Assembly (NCBI GenBank): GCA_027063865.1
Contig: JAMOQT010000028.1
Span: forward strand, 1 to 43,136
Source of the DNA: Nautiliaceae bacterium
GTDB taxonomy: Bacteria > Campylobacterota > Campylobacteria > Campylobacterales > Nautiliaceae
Length of the DNA: 43,136 nucleotides
Reading direction: 5' to 3'
Under the pieces are notes generated by a model. The model made no database searches. It saw nothing but the letters and a program-made list of their open reading frames with translations, and was not told the DNA's origin. Position numbers and translations under genes: made by a program. Shown piece by piece: positions 21,860-34,126 of the stretch (position 1 is its first letter; each line of letters begins with the position of its first letter).

Positions 21860-22546
21860 GGGAATAGAGAATTGAGAATTGAGAATAAAGCGTTAATAAG
21901 TTTTAATAAATTTGCCCATACTTACGGTGAATATAATGTAATTCAAAAGAGGATTATTAAAAAATATCTTCCTTTTGTAAAAAACAGGATTGTTGATTTG
22001 GGCTGCGGAAGTGAAGGGCTTTGCGTTTATAAAAAATTTGATTTTTATCTGGGTGTGGACGCATCCGAAGAGATGCTAAAAAGAAACCCCTGCAATACTT
22101 TAAAAGCCGATTTTAATACAAAGAAATGTTTTGAACTGATAAAAAAATATGATTTTGACCAGATTGTTTCATTTTCGGCACTTCAGTGGGCGGATGATTT
22201 GGAATTTGTATTCAGGGAGATTAAAAATTTAAAAAAAGAGTATCTGCTTGCAATATTTACATCAAATACCTTTAAATCCCTCCATAAATTTTTAGGTGTA
22301 AACTCCCCTATAGTTTCAAAAGAGCGTTTGATTGAGGCTTCCAAAATTTTAGAGCCTACGCATTTGGAAATACTAAGCTATGAAATGAGTTTTAAATCCC
22401 CAAAAGAGCTTTTGGAATATATTAAATATTCGGGAGTCGGAGGCAATGTCAGGGTCAGCCCCGCTAAAATCAGGGAGTTTTTAAAAAAATTTCCCGTTGA
22501 TTTTTTGGAGTTTGAAATTGCTGTTTTATATGGACAGTTTATATGA
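21854..22546 (+). CDS. SAM-dependent methyltransferase, BioC-like
   Basis: 'RIVDLGCGSEGL' motif I; 'FDQIVSFSALQWADDLEFVFREI'; start GTG lies in the octamer array, alternative TTG at 21872. Confidence 0.75.
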   Translation: MKGNRELRIENKALISFNKFAHTYGEYNVIQKRIIKKYLPFVKNRIVDLGCGSEGLCVYKKFDFYLGVDASEEMLKRNPCNTLKADFNTKKCFELIKKYDFDQIVSFSALQWADDLEFVFREIKNLKKEYLLAIFTSNTFKSLHKFLGVNSPIVSKERLIEASKILEPTHLEILSYEMSFKSPKELLEYIKYSGVGGNVRVSPAKIREFLKKFPVDFLEFEIAVLYGQFI

Positions 22547-23501
22547 GGCAGTCTGAATAATACTCTTTTGTAACGCAGTGAATAGAACCGTGCTGTTTTA
22601 TAAGCGTATTTGCGTTTATGGGTATTATATTCCTGTTAGGAAATATTTCACAAAAAAGGTCATAAACATACCTGTCTTTACTGTCGTCATACACGGGGAG
22701 TAAAACTGCGTCGTTTATTATTAAAAAATTGGCATATGTGGCAGGCAGACGGTGATTTTCCCAGATTTTTGGCTTTGGTAGCGGCAGAGGTATAAGGTCA
22801 AATCCTGTTTTTTTAAGTTCTTCTTCCATTTTTGCAAGCTCTTTATAATGAATGTCGTTTTTATTGTTGCATTTACAATAGACTATTGTATTTTCATTCA
22901 CAAATCTTGCAAGGGTGTCTATATGCGAATCGGTATCGTCACCTTCTAAAAAGCCGTGATTTAGCCAAATAATTTCATCTACAAATAGTTCCTTTTTTAA
23001 GAAATCATCAATTTCCTCTTTTGTTAACGGATAGTTTCTGTTTGGTTCTAACAAACACTTAGATGTGGTAAGCAGTGTTTTACCGTTTGTGTCAATACTT
23101 CCGCCCTCTAGTACAAAATTATAGCTTTTATCGATATGAAACAGCGTGCGGGATATCTGATTGTCCAGATTTGCCGGAAATTTCAGTCCCCAGCCGTTGA
23201 ATTTAAAATCAAGCAGTTTAATGCTGTTTTCTTTTTTTACGCTTATAGCTCCAAAATCCCTTGCCCATGTGTCGTTGTTTTGAATTTTGCGGAAAATAAA
23301 GTTTTTATGTTTTAAATGTGAAATTGTGTTTTCATCTTCATAGCAGATTAAAACTTTTTCATACTGTGCTATGGCGTAGGCAATTTCACTAAAGGTATTA
23401 ACTGCATCTTTTAAACAGCATTCCCAGTCCGTGTTTTTATGGGGAAACACAAGCTGGATGAATTCCTGCTTTTCCCATTCGGGTATTAAATAATTTTTCA
23501 T
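22539..23501 (-). CDS. Agmatine deiminase / peptidyl-arginine deiminase family protein
   Basis: 'NDTWARDFGAISV', 'LEGGSIDTNGKTLLTTSKCLL', 'WLNHGFLEGDDTDSHIDTLARF'. Confidence 0.9.
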   Translation of the reverse strand: MKNYLIPEWEKQEFIQLVFPHKNTDWECCLKDAVNTFSEIAYAIAQYEKVLICYEDENTISHLKHKNFIFRKIQNNDTWARDFGAISVKKENSIKLLDFKFNGWGLKFPANLDNQISRTLFHIDKSYNFVLEGGSIDTNGKTLLTTSKCLLEPNRNYPLTKEEIDDFLKKELFVDEIIWLNHGFLEGDDTDSHIDTLARFVNENTIVYCKCNNKNDIHYKELAKMEEELKKTGFDLIPLPLPKPKIWENHRLPATYANFLIINDAVLLPVYDDSKDRYVYDLFCEIFPNRNIIPINANTLIKQHGSIHCVTKEYYSDCLI

Positions 23502-25868: not shown

Positions 25869-26438
25869 ATGGAAGATTTGAAAATTTTACTTAAACTTGC
25901 AAGAATGTCTATATTGGAAGAATTTGAAGGTAAAAAACTAATAGATAAAGAAGAATGGATTAAAAAATATCCGTTTTTAGAAGAAAAAAGGGCGTGTTTT
26001 GTAACATTAAAGATGAAAGACAAACCCAAGGGAAGTAATTTAAGGGGATGTATAGGTTCAATACTTCCATACAGACCTTTAATAGACGATGTTGTTGCAA
26101 ATGCTAAAGCGGCGGCTTTTGAAGACCCGAGGTTTCCCCCTTTGAGTCCTGAAGAGTTTGAGAGAATCAAAATAGAAATAAGCGTACTTACAATTCCCGA
26201 AAAGCTTGAATATGAAGATAAAGAAGATTTAAGAAAAAAAATACGTCCGGGAATTGACGGGGTGATTTTACAACTTGCTAACCATCAGGCTACTTTTTTG
26301 CCGAGTGTATGGGAAGAACTTCCCGCATTTGATCAGTTTTTTGCACATCTTTGCATCAAAGCCGGGCTTTTGGGGGATTGTCTTATGTATCATCCGATAA
26401 TTTATACGTATCAGGCGATTGAGGTGGAAGAGGAATAA
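25869..26438 (+). CDS. AMMECR1 / AmmeMemoRadiSam system protein A
   Basis: 'LRGCIGSILPYRPLIDDVVANAKAAAFEDPRFPPLSPEEFERIKIEISVLT'. Confidence 0.92.
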   Translation: MEDLKILLKLARMSILEEFEGKKLIDKEEWIKKYPFLEEKRACFVTLKMKDKPKGSNLRGCIGSILPYRPLIDDVVANAKAAAFEDPRFPPLSPEEFERIKIEISVLTIPEKLEYEDKEDLRKKIRPGIDGVILQLANHQATFLPSVWEELPAFDQFFAHLCIKAGLLGDCLMYHPIIYTYQAIEVEEE

Positions 26439-27401
26439 ATGTTCACTCCGCCTTTTGAAATAACCCCTGAAATTATTAACCTAATTAGTGAAATATCAGA
26501 AAAAATAGGTTCTCTTAATACAAAAAAAGTGGTGAAACTCAGAAAAATATCAAAAATCCAAACTTTAATAGGCACTCTTAAAATTGAAGGAATTGAAGCA
26601 GACGAAGAAAAGGTTACGGCACTGCTTGAAGGTAAAAGAGTATTGGCAACTCAAAGAGAAATTGCAGAGATTAAAGGTGCTATTGCACTGTATGAAAACA
26701 TTGATACATTTGACTATAAAAATGAATTAGATTTATTAAAAGCTCACAAAATTTTAATGCAGGATGTATTAAAAGATGCTGGAAAATACAGAACTAAAAA
26801 CGTAGGTGTCGGAAACGAAAAAGAGATAACCCATATTGCACCTCCCGCAAGAAATGTTCCTAAATTAATGAGTGATTTATTTGAATGGTTAAAAGTTACT
26901 AAGTTACACCCGTTGATTGTCAGCAGTGTTTTTCACTATGAATTTGAATTTATTCATCCTTTTGTTGATGGAAACGGAAGGATTGGAAGATTTTGGCAGA
27001 CGTTGATATTATATAATTGGAAAAATGTTTTTGAATATTTACCGATAGAATCATTAATTTATGAAAATCAAGATGAATACTACTCGGCAATAGAAAAATC
27101 CACCCAAATCGGAAGTTCAACGCCTTTTATTGAGTTTATGTTAAAAATTATACTTGACACTTTAAATACCCCACAAGCTACCCCACAAGCTACCCCACAA
27201 GATGAAAAAGAGAGAAAAATTATTGAGTTTTGCCAAATTCCAAGAAGCAGAAAAGAAATTGCTGAATATTTAGGAATTAAGGACAGAAAATATTTAAAAG
27301 AGATTTTAGACAGATTAATCAATAAAAATTTACTTCAGATGACAATTCCTGATAAGCCGACTTCTCCAAAGCAAAGATATGTAATTAACCCAAATTGCTA
27401 G
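26439..27401 (+). CDS. Fic family protein
   Basis: Fic motif 'HPFVDGNGRIGRFW'; C-terminal winged-helix-like region. Confidence 0.93.
   Translation: MFTPPFEITPEIINLISEISEKIGSLNTKKVVKLRKISKIQTLIGTLKIEGIEADEEKVTALLEGKRVLATQREIAEIKGAIALYENIDTFDYKNELDLLKAHKILMQDVLKDAGKYRTKNVGVGNEKEITHIAPPARNVPKLMSDLFEWLKVTKLHPLIVSSVFHYEFEFIHPFVDGNGRIGRFWQTLILYNWKNVFEYLPIESLIYENQDEYYSAIEKSTQIGSSTPFIEFMLKIILDTLNTPQATPQATPQDEKERKIIEFCQIPRSRKEIAEYLGIKDRKYLKEILDRLINKNLLQMTIPDKPTSPKQRYVINPNC
27168..27200 (+). repeat. 12-bp tandem repeat (ACCCCACAAGCT)n encoding TPQATPQATPQ linker in Fic
   Basis: Read directly. Confidence 0.9.
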
Positions 27402-27526
27402 TATAATGTCCTCAGAAAAAAGACCGAGAAGAGATGTTGAAATAATGATAGAGGGTTCAGATGGTATTATTTACCTTCTGTTAACTTATAATATTTAAAA
27501 TTTCATAAATTACAAAAGGAGCGATT

Positions 27527-27763
27527 ATGCTGTTAAACGAAATGGTTATAGATGAAAACAATATGGCGTTTATTCCTTCGCTTGGAACGTCTTATCAGCT
27601 GAATGAAACCGCAAAAGAAATAATAGATTTGATTAAAGAGGGTAAAAGCAAAGAGGAAATAGTAAAAATAATTGCAGAAAAAAGCGGGAAAAGTTGGAAA
27701 GATGTATATATTGATGTTGAAGATTTTTTTCAAAAACTTAAAGTTTACGGACTTGTACAATGA
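27527..27763 (+). CDS. PqqD-like (RRE-fold) small protein
   Basis: 78 aa; 'GTSYQLNETAKEIIDLIKEGKSKEEIVKIIAEK...VYIDVEDFFQKLKVYGLV' matches PqqD-family pattern. Confidence 0.78.
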   Translation: MLLNEMVIDENNMAFIPSLGTSYQLNETAKEIIDLIKEGKSKEEIVKIIAEKSGKSWKDVYIDVEDFFQKLKVYGLVQ

Positions 27764-28770
27764 AAATAGCAATCAGCGGGCTTAACAATACCGATAATCC
27801 GGCTCCGGGAATACCTGTTGCAAAAAGTTTAAAAGATGAGTATTCTCTGGTAGGGTTAAGTTATGACCCGAATGAGCCAGGTGTATATCAGGGAGTGTTT
27901 GAAAAAGTTTATTTAATGCCTTATCCCACACTCGGATATGAAGAGTTTAAAAAAAGAATAACCGAAATTAAGCAAAAATCGGATATTGATGTAATAATAC
28001 CGAATTTGGATGCGGAGCTGCCTTTATATATAAAATATCAAAACGATATTGAAAAACTGGGTATAAAAACATATCTGCCGAGTTTAGAATGTTTTGAAAT
28101 GAGGGATAAAAGCAAACTGCCGGAATTTAGTAAAAAAATAGGAGTCAAACATCCTAAAACCATTGAAATTGTTTCATTAGACGATTTGATAAAAGCAACC
28201 AAAGAGCTTGGTTTTCCGGTAATGATTAAAGGAAATTATTATAAAGCCTATAAAGCTTTTAATTTGGACGAAGCTATTGAATTTTATTACAAAATATCGA
28301 ATGAATGGGGTTTTCCTTTATTAGTTCAGGAAGTTATAAGCGGTATCGAAATAAATTTTGTGGGAATTGCAGACGGTGAAAGACTGATAGCAGGTGTGGG
28401 GATGAAAAAACTAACAACCACGGAGCTTGGCAAGGTATGGAGCGGGGTTAGCATAAAAAACAACGCTCTTTTTGAAGCGAGCAAAAAATTTGTACAAACC
28501 GCAGGATGGCGCGGGGCGTTTGAATTTGAGGCTATGAGCGACGGAAAAGATATTTATTTGATAGAAATTAACCCGAGATTTCCGGCATGGGTATATTTTG
28601 CTACGATGCTTGGTATTAATTTGCCAAAAATTATGATTGATTTACTTAACGGAAAAAAAGTTAATGAGAATTTTGAATATCCGGTTGAAAAAATGTATAT
28701 AAGATATACGGATGAAACAACGGTTGATTTTAATAAATTTTCCACTTTAATATCGAAAAAAGAAATTTAA
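27760..28770 (+). CDS. ATP-grasp domain protein
   Basis: 'FPVMIKGNYYKAYKA', 'LVQEVISGIEINFVGIADG', 'LIEINPRFPAW' (CarB-like ATP-grasp motifs). Confidence 0.85.
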   Translation: MKIAISGLNNTDNPAPGIPVAKSLKDEYSLVGLSYDPNEPGVYQGVFEKVYLMPYPTLGYEEFKKRITEIKQKSDIDVIIPNLDAELPLYIKYQNDIEKLGIKTYLPSLECFEMRDKSKLPEFSKKIGVKHPKTIEIVSLDDLIKATKELGFPVMIKGNYYKAYKAFNLDEAIEFYYKISNEWGFPLLVQEVISGIEINFVGIADGERLIAGVGMKKLTTTELGKVWSGVSIKNNALFEASKKFVQTAGWRGAFEFEAMSDGKDIYLIEINPRFPAWVYFATMLGINLPKIMIDLLNGKKVNENFEYPVEKMYIRYTDETTVDFNKFSTLISKKEI

Positions 28771-28779
28771 GGAGATAAA

Positions 28780-30114
28780 ATGTATGAAAAACCTACGATA
28801 AACAGGGTTGATTTTGCAATGGCGAGCAAATACGGAAGCCCCCTAAAAACGCAAAAAATAAGAAGTGAAATAGACGGGGTGAATGTAAGGGAACTTACTG
28901 AAAAATACGGCTCTCCTCTTTTTGTGTTTAGCGAAAGAGTTATAGAGGATAAATATTTGGAATTTAAAGATGCTTTTTCAAGCAGATATCCGGAAGTTGA
29001 ATTTTGGTGGAGTTATAAAACGAATTATCTTGATGCAATCTGTAAAATTTTTCATAAACTCGGAAGCAAAGCCGAAGTGGTGAGCGAATTTGAATATCAG
29101 AAGGCTAGACGCCTGGGAATTGAAGGTGAAAATATAATTTTTAACGGTCCGTATAAACCTAAAGACGCCCTGAAAACCGCCGTTAAAGAAGGGGCTAAAA
29201 TTCATATAGACCATTGGTATGAAATTAATGATTTGGAAGAAATAGCAGAAGAGCTTGGAATTGAAATTCCGGTAGCCATCAGATGTAATATGGATACGGG
29301 TGTTTTTCCTCAATGGAGCAGGTTCGGGTTTAATATAGATAACGGTGAAGCGTATGATGCAGTAAAAAGAATATATGAAGGAAAAAAATTATATTTAAGA
29401 GGACTTCATTCTCATATCGGGACGTTTATGCTAAGCGCAAACGCTTACGCAAATGAAACTAAAAAACTAATAGAGCTTAAAAACAGGGTTGAAGAGGATT
29501 TCGGTTATCAAATAGAATATATAGACATCGGCGGAGGATTTGCAAGCAAAAACAGATTAAAAGGCGTATATCAGGCACCAGAGGTTATCGTTCCGAGTGC
29601 CGATGAATATGCCGAAGCCGTAACAAACGCCATTTTTGAAAACAATAAAGGAAAACTCCCTAAACTTTATCTTGAAACGGGAAGGGCGTTAATAGATGAA
29701 GCGGGATTTTTATTAACAAGCGTGTTTGCCGCTAAAAGAATGCCTGACGGGAAAAAGAGCTATATCGTAGATGCCGGGGTAAATCTTTTATATACGGCGT
29801 TTTGGTATAATTTTGACATTGCGCTTGATAAAAGATATGAAGGACTTAACGAACCTTCTCAGATAAACGGTCCTTTATGTATGAATATCGATATAATTGC
29901 CGAAAATATTATGTTGCCTCCGCTTGAGAGGGGAAGTGTGCTAAGTATTTGGCCGGTGGGTGCTTATAATGTTACCCAAGCTATGCAGTTTATAAGATAC
30001 AGACCGAGAATTGTACTTATTGATAAAAATTCAAATACGCATATTATTAAAGAAGCGGACGATTTGGAATATGTTGTAGAAAAAGAAATGATACCGGATT
30101 ATCTTAAAGGCTGA
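28780..30114 (+). CDS. Fold-type III PLP-dependent decarboxylase (Orn/DAP/Arg decarboxylase 2 family, LysA-like)
   Basis: 'WWSYKTNYLDAIC' PLP-Lys region, 'AEVVSEFEY', 'LRGLHSHIGTF', 'YIDIGGGFASK', 'LYLETGRALIDEAG'. Confidence 0.86.
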   Translation: MYEKPTINRVDFAMASKYGSPLKTQKIRSEIDGVNVRELTEKYGSPLFVFSERVIEDKYLEFKDAFSSRYPEVEFWWSYKTNYLDAICKIFHKLGSKAEVVSEFEYQKARRLGIEGENIIFNGPYKPKDALKTAVKEGAKIHIDHWYEINDLEEIAEELGIEIPVAIRCNMDTGVFPQWSRFGFNIDNGEAYDAVKRIYEGKKLYLRGLHSHIGTFMLSANAYANETKKLIELKNRVEEDFGYQIEYIDIGGGFASKNRLKGVYQAPEVIVPSADEYAEAVTNAIFENNKGKLPKLYLETGRALIDEAGFLLTSVFAAKRMPDGKKSYIVDAGVNLLYTAFWYNFDIALDKRYEGLNEPSQINGPLCMNIDIIAENIMLPPLERGSVLSIWPVGAYNVTQAMQFIRYRPRIVLIDKNSNTHIIKEADDLEYVVEKEMIPDYLKG

Positions 30115-30116
30115 TA

Positions 30117-32138
30117 TTGCAAAAGATAAATTTTATTTTCAAGCCATACGTTTCGATACTTTTTTTAAGGGATGTAAAAGCGGGGGCGATTTTGTTTTTC
30201 CTCTCTTTTTTATTGCCAAGTGTCGGAATTTTAGGGCTTGTAGGGATTATAGCCACGGTTTTGTTTGCCGAATTTATTAATGTAAGGGATGAGTATTTAA
30301 AATACGGCTTTTATCTTTACAATTCTTTATTGGTGGGGATGGGGGTCGGATATTTTTTTGATGTCAGTTTTATAACCGTTGTTTTAACGGTTATGCTATC
30401 AATTCTTACTTTTTTGATTTCTTTCAGTATAAACAGGGTTTTTGTTAAATATGCTTTGCCCCTTTTATCTTTACCTTTTGCATTTGTCAGTACGTTTTTT
30501 TATTTGGCGAGTTTAAAATATACATCGCTTTTAAGTAATATTCTGCACAGGCAGCCGCTTTTTGATATTACACTGCCTTTGGATTCTTTTTTTAAATCTC
30601 TCGGGACAATTTTTTTCTTGCCTTACGGAATAGCGGGATTAATTATAAGTTTGATTATTCTGATTTATTCAAGAGTTTTATTTTTATCGGCTTTTACTGG
30701 ATTTTGGGCGGGGGTTTGGTTTCATTCGTTATTTGTCCCTTTTTATGAAGCATTAAATTCCCCTTATAATTTTAATTTTATTTTAATCGCAATGGCGCTT
30801 GGAGGAGTGTTTTTAATTCCTAATGTTAAAAATTTTGTTTTGGCGCTGTTAGCCGTTTTTTTATCCGTTGTTTTTATCGATGCTATGGAAGTGTTTTTTA
30901 ATATATATGCACTTCCCGTATATACGTTACCGTTTAATTTTATTACGCTTTTATTTATAATGATTTTATATACGCTTGGGTATGTCTATTTTAACTATGA
31001 TATTAAAGAAACACCCGAAAAATCACTTATCGCTTTTTTAAGTAAATTTTACCGTTTCGGCGGTAATGATATAAAGATAAATTTGCCTTTTATAGGGGAA
31101 TGGTGCGTTTATCAGGAATTTGACGATAAATGGACACACAAAGGAGAGTGGAAATACGCATATGATTTTGTTATTGAAAAAAACGGTAAAACATACGTAA
31201 ATGAAGGTCTTTTTTTGGATGATTATTATGCTTTTGGAAAACCAGTAGTTGCCCCAATTAGCGGTTATATTGTGGCATTGCGCGATGATTTACCGGATAA
31301 TATAATAGGGGAAGTTGACAGGGAAAACAACTGGGGTAATTACATTATAATCAAAAGCGATTACGGATATTTTGTGGAAATATCACATTTAATGCAAAAT
31401 TCCATTAAGGTTAAGATGGGGGATTATGTAAAAGCAGGGGATATAATAGCAAAATGCGGTAACAGCGGCTATTCTCCGGAACCTCATATTCATATCCAAG
31501 TGCAAAAATACGGAGTGCTTGGAAGCGAAACTCTGCCTTTTAAATTTGTCGATTACTTAAAAGGAAAAAAACTTTATTATTATTCCCTGCCAAAGAGAGG
31601 TGAAACAATTAAATCTGTTTTAGCAGATAAATCTATGAAACTCAGGCTTACTTTTATTTTAGATGATAAATTTAAATATGAAGTATATAAAAATAAAATA
31701 AAAGTTGATGAATTTACCTTGAAAGTAAAAATGAACGATAAGGGCGAATTTTATTTTTTTGATGGAGAAAACAGGCTTTACTTTTATACGGATGAAAAGC
31801 TTTTTTATTTTTATGAATATGAAGGTAAAAAAGGCTGGTTGAAAGAGATGTTTAAGTTAGCCCCTAAAATTCCTTTGGTTTCAAATGAATGCGAATATGA
31901 AGACGTTTTGCCTCCTCAGTTTAAATACGGTTTATTTAAGCGTGTTTTATTAGAGCTCATTTTGCCTTTTAATTTTAAATTATTTAATAAAAAGATTTTA
32001 TATAAAAAGGAAAGTTTAAAAATAAAATCAAAATTTGGGGAAGTTTATTTTTCTTTTTATGAAAAAGGCATTGATAAAATAGAAATGAAGGATGTGGAAT
32101 TAAGGAGAGTATATGAAAAAAATGCTTTTAATAATTAG
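30117..32138 (+). CDS. Urea-transporter-like membrane domain fused to M23 (LytM-type) peptidase domain
   Basis: ~10 TM N-terminal half; C-terminal 'GNYIIIKSDYGYFVEISHLMQNSIKVKMGDYVKAGDIIAKCGNSGYSPEPHIHIQV'. Confidence 0.82.
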   Translation: MQKINFIFKPYVSILFLRDVKAGAILFFLSFLLPSVGILGLVGIIATVLFAEFINVRDEYLKYGFYLYNSLLVGMGVGYFFDVSFITVVLTVMLSILTFLISFSINRVFVKYALPLLSLPFAFVSTFFYLASLKYTSLLSNILHRQPLFDITLPLDSFFKSLGTIFFLPYGIAGLIISLIILIYSRVLFLSAFTGFWAGVWFHSLFVPFYEALNSPYNFNFILIAMALGGVFLIPNVKNFVLALLAVFLSVVFIDAMEVFFNIYALPVYTLPFNFITLLFIMILYTLGYVYFNYDIKETPEKSLIAFLSKFYRFGGNDIKINLPFIGEWCVYQEFDDKWTHKGEWKYAYDFVIEKNGKTYVNEGLFLDDYYAFGKPVVAPISGYIVALRDDLPDNIIGEVDRENNWGNYIIIKSDYGYFVEISHLMQNSIKVKMGDYVKAGDIIAKCGNSGYSPEPHIHIQVQKYGVLGSETLPFKFVDYLKGKKLYYYSLPKRGETIKSVLADKSMKLRLTFILDDKFKYEVYKNKIKVDEFTLKVKMNDKGEFYFFDGENRLYFYTDEKLFYFYEYEGKKGWLKEMFKLAPKIPLVSNECEYEDVLPPQFKYGLFKRVLLELILPFNFKLFNKKILYKKESLKIKSKFGEVYFSFYEKGIDKIEMKDVELRRVYEKNAFNN

Positions 32139-32703
32139 TGTTGCTTTGTCGCTTTTTGCGCTTGATGTAAAAAATGCTTATTATAAATCGTATAATTATG
32201 AAAAAATGGGGGATTATAAGGATGCTATAAAGGTTTTGATTCCGGTGTATAATAAATATCCCAATGGATATACACTTAATTTAAGACTTGGATGGCTGTT
32301 TTTTCTTAGTAAAAAATACAACAATGCCCTTATTCATTATAAAAAAGCTTCTTTAGCCGTTCCTTATTCAATAGAGGCTAAATTAGGGATGATGAGGGTG
32401 TATCTGGCTTGTGGTGATTATGACAGTGCTTTAAAAATAGGAAATGCCGTTTTAAAAACGGATTATTACAACTATTACGGCAACTATTATGAAATACTCT
32501 CTTTAACGGCAAAGAAACGCTATGATGAGGCTTTGAGTCTGATTAACAAAATGCTAAGCCTTTATCCTACAAGCGTAATGTATTTAGTGGAACTTGGCAA
32601 AATTTATTATGTAAAAGACAGGCAAAAAGCCAAAAAAATTTTTGAGGATGTTTTAATTTTAGACCCTAACAACATAACGGCAAAAAAGTATTTAAGCAAA
32701 TGA
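32113..32703 (+). CDS. Exported TPR protein
   Basis: Signal peptide; repeated ~34-aa helical pattern ('YNNALIHYKKASLAVPYSIEAKLGMMRVYLACGDYDSALKIGNAVL'). Confidence 0.78.
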   Translation: MKKMLLIISVALSLFALDVKNAYYKSYNYEKMGDYKDAIKVLIPVYNKYPNGYTLNLRLGWLFFLSKKYNNALIHYKKASLAVPYSIEAKLGMMRVYLACGDYDSALKIGNAVLKTDYYNYYGNYYEILSLTAKKRYDEALSLINKMLSLYPTSVMYLVELGKIYYVKDRQKAKKIFEDVLILDPNNITAKKYLSK

Positions 32704-33290
32704 GGATTTTGTGTTATTTAAAATATGAATTGAATTTTAAACAATTTGATTTTACTTATGTAAAAGATGAAAACGATTTTTACGAAAAAATATTAAATAA
32801 AAAATATGACGTAATAATTATTGATTTTGATTTTTACGCTCAGTTTCTGAATGTTAAAGATTATATAGATTCAGAGGTGATTTTTTTAAATTTTTACTGT
32901 GATGATTTTATATTTAAAAAGGTCTTAGAAGCGGGAGATTTCTGTTATACGTATGAAGAATATGAAAAACTTTTGCTTCGTCTTAAATATTTACAAAAAA
33001 AATCTATTAATTCTAAAACAACGGTATATAAAAAGAATAATATTTTATACAATTTCAGTACAAATACGTTGTATATCGATTCAAAACCGGTTAAGTTAAG
33101 CAGTGCCGAAAACGAGCTTTTAAAAACGCTGATAAAACACAAAAACAGATATCTCTCAAAAGAAGATATACTGAGTGAATGTGATAATATAGAAAGCATA
33201 GATTCAATAAAGGTGCTTGTTTCCCATTTGAGAAAAGTGGGGATTAAAATAGAAAATCAAAAAAATCTAGGATATAAAATAAAGGAGTGA
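32700..33290 (+). CDS. OmpR-type winged-helix regulator with degenerate receiver domain
   Basis: 'LYIDSKPVKLSSAENELLKTLIKHKNRYLSKEDILSEC...SIKVLVSHLRKVGIKIENQKNLGYKI'. Confidence 0.75.
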   Translation: MRILCYLKYELNFKQFDFTYVKDENDFYEKILNKKYDVIIIDFDFYAQFLNVKDYIDSEVIFLNFYCDDFIFKKVLEAGDFCYTYEEYEKLLLRLKYLQKKSINSKTTVYKKNNILYNFSTNTLYIDSKPVKLSSAENELLKTLIKHKNRYLSKEDILSECDNIESIDSIKVLVSHLRKVGIKIENQKNLGYKIKE

Positions 33291-34126
33291 TTATGAAAAA
33301 ATTATTAAGCATAGCTTTACTTTCAACATTGGGATTTTCAGCGGATATAATGCCTTACGGGGCTTATATGGATTATTCCTCTGCCGCTTATAAAGATAAA
33401 GGATATATTGCCGGAATTTACGGCAGTTTTACAAAACTTCCTTTTAAAGCGGAAATTGATGCCGAACATACAAGAATTAAATATAAAGATAAATTTAATA
33501 TCGATGATTGGAAACAGACCGATTTAACACTTATAGGACACTATTTTCAAGGCTATAATTTTGCGTATAAAGCCGGTATTCATAATATATGGGTTAAACA
33601 GGGAAGTGAATCGGATTATGATAAAGTGTTTATTTTAGGAGCCCTTTATTATAAATATTTAAAATATAATGTTGGAATTGACGCTTATTATTCGGATTAT
33701 GAAGATAACGGAGGGTTTAACGTATTTCAAATATCTCCTAAAATCGGATTTAATTTCGGAAATTACTATTCTGAGACAGGGTCTTTTTACGGAGAATTAA
33801 AATATAATCATATTCATATTAACAAAGATAATATTACTCCTAAAAGCAATTATTCGAATGTGGATATAAAATTACAAAATTTTAAAGGTCCATGGACAAC
33901 TACTGTAAATGTTTCATTTGGTAAAAGCGCTTATAAAGTTGCAAATGACGGATTTGTGGTATATACGACAGGGGATGAGTATAAATATTCCGCAGGTTTG
34001 TCCGTAAATTATGCTTTGAGTAAAAAAGAGAGTATAAAAGCAGGATATACAAAAAGCAAATATAATAACGGAACTGATGACTGCTATTCGAATGTATATA
34101 CGCTTTCTTATTCAAGAGCTTTTTAA
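33287..34126 (+). CDS. Outer-membrane beta-barrel protein
   Basis: Signal peptide 'MKKLLSIALLSTLGFSA'; alternating aromatic beta-strand pattern, C-terminal 'YTLSYSRAF'. Confidence 0.72.
   Translation: MIMKKLLSIALLSTLGFSADIMPYGAYMDYSSAAYKDKGYIAGIYGSFTKLPFKAEIDAEHTRIKYKDKFNIDDWKQTDLTLIGHYFQGYNFAYKAGIHNIWVKQGSESDYDKVFILGALYYKYLKYNVGIDAYYSDYEDNGGFNVFQISPKIGFNFGNYYSETGSFYGELKYNHIHINKDNITPKSNYSNVDIKLQNFKGPWTTTVNVSFGKSAYKVANDGFVVYTTGDEYKYSAGLSVNYALSKKESIKAGYTKSKYNNGTDDCYSNVYTLSYSRAF

Follow-up and report, generated by a model that had tools for sequence, protein, structure and literature searches.

In the lasso branch of the ribosomally synthesized and post-translationally modified peptides (RiPPs), a discrete RiPP recognition element (RRE) binds the leader motif [Y/W]xxPx[L/V/I/F/A] (PMC13381572; also PMC12710340), and in the RRE LppB the YxxP part is contacted by N33, D70, F74, M78 and L83 (PMC13381572). 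The clade of fold-III pyridoxal phosphate (PLP) decarboxylases that holds FslC/FigC has been placed in specialised metabolism; in other members of the family an acidic residue binds the free side-chain amine, and in diaminopimelate (DAP) decarboxylases an Arg binds the distal carboxylate (PMC7857480). Here we describe a cassette in which these two themes meet, encoded by seven plus-strand genes at positions 27527-34126 of contig JAMOQT010000028.1 from a Nautiliaceae bacterium (assembly GCA_027063865.1, G000 in our survey and 57% complete; the window is the whole stretch analysed, 43,136 nucleotides). The genes overlap or nearly touch their neighbours, and encode in order a PqqD-like RRE, an ATP-grasp ligase, a decarboxylase, a fusion of a urea transporter (UT) channel with an M23 peptidase (UT-M23), a tetratricopeptide repeat (TPR) protein, a regulator and a predicted outer-membrane protein (Table 1). 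An earlier reading of the bare sequence (the original prediction) had given the same seven genes, coordinates, overlaps and families, all of which are borne out by the list of open reading frames (ORFs) and by Pfam.

The central observation concerns the N-terminus of the decarboxylase, where about 25 residues precede the part shared with LysA, and where the AlphaFold model falls below a predicted local distance difference test (pLDDT) score of 50 over residues 1-21. In all 97 family members this tail contains [YW]xxPx[ILVMF] (Y in 96, P in 97, a hydrophobic residue at +5 in 97), always at a fixed distance, 74-78 residues ahead of the SYKTN active-site motif, and the motif was found in none of 20 LysA paralogues. 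Outside Campylobacterota the consensus of the tail is YEKPxIxKLxxGxMNKFGxSPxYxRKxR. The best solved relatives of the cassette's PqqD profile are, in turn, the lasso RREs TbiB1 (3.6e-7) and TfuB1 (1.3e-5), and the five contact residues of LppB correspond, at identical spacing, to N26, D63, F67, L71 and L76 of the PqqD-like protein, a correspondence set by spacing and not by structural alignment. Among 88 RRE sequences these are conserved in 81, 85, 85, 83 and 79 cases, respectively. Asp63 is missing from three of the 88: the RRE of locus L136, which has Glu in its place, accompanies the sole W-type tail of the 97 (WVKPSI), a covariation that is only suggestive because the other two, at L118 and L150, accompany Y-type tails.

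Since the tail bears a lasso-type motif and the RRE keeps the residues that would hold it, the leader tag probably sits on the decarboxylase itself, and docking of the RRE on this tail, which we regard as quite probable, is the best supported of our inferences. The cassette shares with the TbiB1/TbiA, TfuB1/TfuA and LPP LppB/LppA systems a discrete PqqD-like RRE, a leader motif and the spaced contact residues; it differs in that the motif lies there on a precursor peptide and here on an active enzyme, and in lacking a lasso-type cyclase or leader peptidase. The original prediction had seen neither a radical SAM enzyme nor a gene for a separate precursor, and both statements are upheld; as the likely ligand of the RRE, a missing precursor now gives way to the decarboxylase's own tail. 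LysW, with which it drew a comparison, is a carrier with a C-terminal Glu; the C-termini of the PqqD-like proteins are variable and hold no conserved Glu, and a carrier logic of the LysW kind may or may not apply.

An RRE next to an ATP-grasp enzyme is a RiPP signature, and the trio might accordingly be read as a classical RiPP pathway whose substrate would be a small peptide, encoded at a distance and modified by RRE, ligase and decarboxylase. We consider this improbable: although the leader-binding domain of a RiPP cluster is present, the separate short precursor is not, and among the cassette loci compared no small ORF recurs within the operon or close to it. Furthermore, in a pattern search of eight genomes the strict leader motif stood at the start of an ORF only in the decarboxylase, the remaining matches lying in tiny frames or in mid-protein and being about as frequent as those of a reversed-pattern control. 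On this search a separate precursor peptide was rejected, although a divergent and unlinked one is conceivable.

The tail could also be more than a docking tag. Beyond YxxP it keeps a Lys (86/97) followed by [FY] and a Gly (81/97) at constant spacing, more than docking should need, and one might envisage an embedded precursor or carrier: the tail would be the substrate, presented by the RRE and loaded with an amino acid by the ATP-grasp ligase (e.g. on the Lys that is conserved within x-K-[FY]-G), the decarboxylase would treat the attached residue in the way that BtrK treats glutamyl-BtrI, and release of the product would fall to the M23 domain. The occurrence of carrier-bound substrates in the clade (BtrK, PMC7857480) and the predicted cytoplasmic side of the M23 domain speak for this proposal. 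Nevertheless, it appears rather unlikely, given that the tail Lys is not universal, that no known ATP-grasp/RRE pair modifies the tail of a fused enzyme, and that no sign of cleavage is seen.

The catalytic part of the decarboxylase has as its closest solved relative FslC/FigC, the rhizoferrin enzyme (N-citrylornithine decarboxylase), and has in common with the FslC/FigC, SbnH, BtrK and MccE clade the fold, the catalytic Lys, His and Cys, the Met beside the Cys and the Thr/Tyr of the specificity helix. Taking the specificity determinants of FigC from PMC7857480, we found K63, H198, C354, M355, T327 and Y331 kept as K80, H210, C367, M368, T339 and Y343, whereas H357, R387 and T330 are changed to I370, Q400 and W342. 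Across the 97 sequences the pocket formed by K80, R168, H210, C367, T339, W342, Y343, M368, I370 and Q400 is almost invariant (M368 in 96, I370 in 94, Q400 in 97). The catalytic Lys, His and Cys that mark the specialised-metabolism clade 2 are thus in place and the acidic specificity residue is lost, while the citrate-contacting His357 and Arg387 of FigC are not kept; as judged from these residues, the pocket is intact, FslC-like and citrate-blind. The enzyme scores below the cut-off of FslC (221 vs 500 bits) and below that of the LysA equivalog TIGR01048 (228.1 vs 297.9 bits). LysA shares its fold and about 30% identity overall, but the cassette enzyme lacks the Arg of RPaLY and any Arg at the specificity-helix positions examined, has M368 where LysA places an acidic residue beside its catalytic Cys (96/97), and occurs in genomes that encode a separate LysA. 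The original prediction of a fold-III decarboxylase of basic amino acids stands as regards the fold-III PLP enzyme, but the FslC-like pocket with its Met beside the catalytic Cys shows that it is not of the free-basic-amino-acid type. As the pocket has neither the acidic residue for a free amine nor the Arg that DAP decarboxylases use, its substrate is probably an amino acid whose side chain bears a neutral acyl group, and the invariance of the pocket in sequences from many phyla makes one common product likely.

The kinship with the rhizoferrin enzyme raises the prospect of a siderophore or metallophore pathway, in which the ligase and an N-acyl-amino-acid decarboxylase would make a chelator that is exported or re-imported by the beta-barrel and TPR protein, with regulation by a two-component metal sensor. 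Some copies are indeed flanked by two-component genes and by LTXXQ/Metal_resist or DUF2202/DUF4405 genes, but such flanks are few, the citrate-binding residues are replaced in nearly all 97 enzymes, and no TonB-dependent receptor or synthetase of the NRPS-independent siderophore (NIS) type is conserved with the cassette. Relative to FslC/FigC, the cassette enzyme has Ile/Gln for His357/Arg387, Trp at T330 and the N-terminal tail, and its partner is an ATP-grasp ligase (motifs KGNYYKA and EINPRFP, conserved in 15 sequences) rather than an NIS synthetase. A siderophore function hence seems unlikely to us. In the butirosin pathway, BtrJ carries out the ligase step. The BtrI/BtrJ/BtrK system and our proposal have in common that ligation comes first and the attached amino acid is then decarboxylated, with the difference that the cassette has an RRE and no acyl-carrier protein.

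Comparative genomics indicates that these genes belong together. A search in 60 relatives and retrieval of loci recovered the order pqqD, ATP-grasp, decarboxylase and UT-M23, and then TPR, regulator and outer-membrane protein in either order, and about 27 Campylobacterota loci share the core synteny with differing flanks. In a survey of 398 Campylobacterota genomes (E <= 1e-80 for the decarboxylase, E <= 1e-20 for the UT-M23 fusion) the two genes occurred in an identical set of 19, and among 58 cyanobacterial relatives in an identical set of five. Where the genes are unlinked both are still kept: four checked genomes without UT-M23 beside the decarboxylase, together with G049, carry it elsewhere (5/5). 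Scanning 85,462 species genomes yielded at least 545 decarboxylase relatives, and the cross-phylum counts that follow refer to the best 80 of them. These were ranked by their likeness to a query in which the tail is included (the scan patterns themselves lie outside it), a selection that also qualifies the tail counts given above, with phyla read from record titles, some of which may be wrong for metagenome-assembled genomes. A six-gene core of RRE, ATP-grasp, decarboxylase, UT-M23, TPR and outer-membrane protein keeps its order wherever it recurs, over a span of more than 20 phyla, the titles including Campylobacterota, Aquificota, Thermodesulfobacteria, Gemmatimonadota, Ignavibacteria, Calditrichota, Verrucomicrobia, Cyanobacteria, Myxococcota, Planctomycetota, Cloacimonadota, Omnitrophus, Bacteroidota, Francisella, Thiomargarita and others. 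Where the contig was long enough, the decarboxylase was adjoined by ATP-grasp in 71/72 loci, pqqD in 69/70 and UT-M23 in 67/73, and profiles detected TPR in 44 of 57 and the outer-membrane protein in 35 of 57. Two of the 19 genomes hold decayed cassettes between intact neighbours: G008 (locus L041), broken from decarboxylase to outer-membrane protein, and G094 (locus L070), broken in the decarboxylase, UT-M23 and sensor pair.

Conserved as it is across phyla, this gene order lies far beyond chance, and on comparative grounds the grouping of the seven genes into an operon is real. The co-occurrence of the trio with UT-M23 across phyla had been set beforehand as a test that could refute the original prediction, and it was borne out; synteny and co-occurrence likewise support the idea of one functional unit made of the biosynthetic trio and an envelope part. 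No accessory neighbour is conserved: 87 neighbours fell into 152 families, no family exceeding five, with response regulators as the commonest class (5/87). Two other explanations were rejected. Mobile plasmid cargo finds no support in 72,556 plasmid records, where the decarboxylase has no match and UT-M23 is matched only over its M23 part, reaching no further than the last stretch of the UT part; an anti-phage defence system is not indicated, with no matches to the PADLOC models. On NZ_AP025604.1 and on Listeria plasmids, M23 proteins match query residues 265-479, which include the UT end, and may share a linker or part of a membrane segment. At L092 a second pqqD and a truncated ATP-grasp gene lie just upstream of a full cassette, representing a partial duplication.

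The UT-M23 fusion was modelled by AlphaFold with a pLDDT of 88, and Foldseek matched the model to the dvUT and M23 folds. In 16 sequences the metal and catalytic residues H341, D350, H424, H457 and H459 of the M23 domain are invariant, with a gap between H341 and D350 that exceeds the classic HxxxD motif. Loops that face the same side as the N and C termini hold on average 11.0 Lys and Arg per sequence versus 2.25 on the other side, with all 16 sequences in agreement, and there is no additional hydrophobic segment ahead of the M23 domain. UT topology, taken by homology, together with the positive-inside rule predicts a cytoplasmic M23 domain, an unusual location, so that an action on envelope peptidoglycan is improbable. 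Of the original proposal that the last four genes work at the envelope, an envelope part is upheld, whereas M23 probably has its place elsewhere.

The UT part resembles the bacterial urea channel dvUT in its fold (Foldseek TM 0.8 to target) and has both LPxxTxPF-type motifs, which would be expected if the locus were a plain uptake operon for urea or a small amide with unrelated passengers. This is very improbable in view of its perfect co-occurrence with the trio. In contrast to dvUT, moreover, the cassette UT is fused to C-terminal M23 and beta domains, positions aligned to the lid residues Q24/E187 are not conserved as Q/E, and a convincing urease partner is missing: 18 of 20 cassette genomes have no Urease_alpha match above the cut-off, and the two matches above it, like one below it, are short and partial, in ORFs of about 400 residues.

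Both the TPR protein and the outer-membrane protein have signal-like N-termini. The latter, gene 7, has no Pfam or PDB match; its identification draws on alternating hydrophobic segments, a C-terminal Phe and its position in the conserved outer-membrane-protein slot, which a cyanobacterial copy fills with an OprB porin as the gene after UT-M23. Exporters of the AlgK/AlgE, BcsC and PgaA type combine a periplasmic TPR protein with an outer-membrane barrel. The cassette has the same pairing, fused in some verrucomicrobial copies (L115:11433-12887; a 530-residue ORF in L128), but without a polymerase or glycosyltransferase and with a small barrel that has no sequence match. An apparent UT-M23-TPR-TPR fusion in L132 was not counted, since the signal peptide kept inside it points to a probable lost stop. 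The product of gene 6, proposed earlier as a regulator, retains the DNA-binding domain, but its receiver is degenerate, lacking the acidic pocket and the Lys; elsewhere a normal histidine kinase/response regulator pair takes its place, as upstream in L067 and L069, and L082 too has a histidine kinase upstream. Upstream of pqqD in L093, L095 and L119 lie genes for DUF4405 membrane proteins and DUF2202 or OB-fold secreted proteins, with a histidine kinase in some; LTXXQ/Metal_resist and YHYH genes adjoin the cyanobacterial copies, a possible envelope or metal stress context.

Taken together, these comparisons allow us to outline a conserved pathway that would make a small molecule and move it across the envelope, a chain to which, as a whole, we give an even chance: 1) The PqqD-like RRE, whose gene is coupled to that of the ligase by an ATGA overlap, would bind the tail and tether the decarboxylase to the ATP-grasp ligase. 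2) The ligase would take an amino acid and link its side-chain amine or hydroxyl to a carboxylate. 3) From the amino acid thus acylated, the decarboxylase would strip the alpha-carboxyl, leaving an amine with a neutral acyl group. 4) The cytoplasmic M23 and C-terminal domains would mature or release the product, and the UT channel would pass it. 5) The TPR protein and beta-barrel would take it out through, or back across, the outer membrane. 6) The response regulator would control the operon. That the product is exported rather than imported is a guess. The stronger formulation, of a pan-bacterial pathway in which RiPP leader-recognition machinery acts on a leader-bearing enzyme, be the leader a docking tag or a covalently loaded carrier, and in which the M23-UT fusion releases and exports the product, we put forward tentatively, as somewhat doubtful. 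Several points weigh against the outlined pathway: binding of the tail by the RRE is drawn from sequence comparison, and the pocket residues may be general to PqqD folds; the side of the membrane assigned to M23 is deduced from homology to UT proteins and from the positive-inside rule; the solutes that UT channels let through are very small, which is awkward for an acylated amine; and a part of the distant loci gave no profile match to the outer-membrane or TPR protein.

Open-access literature searched for PqqD with urea transporter, and for ATP-grasp with urea transporter and DAP decarboxylase, yielded no description of the cassette, although an account in a subscription journal is possible. 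That six genes have stayed together in one order over more than 20 phyla, with an active site that does not vary, implies a widely used metabolite that is undescribed in that literature. If the formulation with a leader-bearing enzyme is correct, the RRE/leader code would have a use outside RiPPs, and the M23-UT fusion would be a channel-coupled peptidase of a new kind. Should the RRE indeed bind the decarboxylase tail, RREs would also wire ordinary enzymes together, which could account for some RREs without a known precursor, and genome mining for short precursors beside RREs would miss such pathways.

Table 1. Features of the cassette; positions are those of the window.
Feature	Position	Strand	Description
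Gene 1	27527..27763	+	PqqD-like discrete RRE (peptide-binding) protein, 78 aa; Pfam PqqD 1.4e-10
Gene 2	27760..28770	+	CPSase/PylC-like single-domain ATP-grasp ligase, 336 aa; Pfam ATPgrasp_Ter 6e-10
Gene 3	28780..30114	+	PLP decarboxylase of fold III (alanine-racemase fold) with FslC/FigC-like pocket, 444 aa; Pfam Orn_Arg_deC_N 2e-29 and C-terminal domain
Gene 3 tail	28780..28857	+	Leader-like N-terminal residues 1-26, predicted disordered over 1-21
Gene 3 tail motif	28783..28800	+	YEKPTI = [Y/W]xxPx[hydrophobic], lasso-leader RRE recognition motif
Gene 4	30117..32138	+	UT channel-M23 peptidase fusion with C-terminal beta domain, 673 aa, TTG start; Pfam UT 8e-58, Peptidase_M23 4e-14
Gene 4 M23 domain	31236..31514	+	Residues 374-466; predicted cytoplasmic
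Gene 5	32113..32703	+	Periplasmic TPR protein, 196 aa; Pfam TPR repeats, signal-peptide-like N-terminus
Gene 6	32700..33290	+	OmpR/PhoB-type DNA-binding domain and degenerate (pseudo) receiver, 196 aa; Pfam Trans_reg_C 7e-8
Gene 7	33287..34126	+	Predicted outer-membrane beta-barrel, 279 aa (277 from in-frame ATG)

Ahead of gene 1, the AGGAG noted earlier is confirmed in the sequence. The TATAAT hexamer at 27487-27492 is present as well, but its reading as a promoter is weak, because plus-strand calling gave no sigma-70-like pair at this position and promoter-like sites (36 vs 31.9 in shuffles) show no excess. About 4 kb upstream of the cassette, on the minus strand, lies a PAD_porph gene of the agmatine-deiminase type (22539-23501), which is not a conserved neighbour elsewhere. 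An AMMECR1 gene (25869-26438) is followed by a plus-strand Fic/DOC-family gene (26439-27401) that adjoins the cassette upstream, and in whose product a TPQATPQATPQ repeat precedes the C-terminal winged-helix domain.

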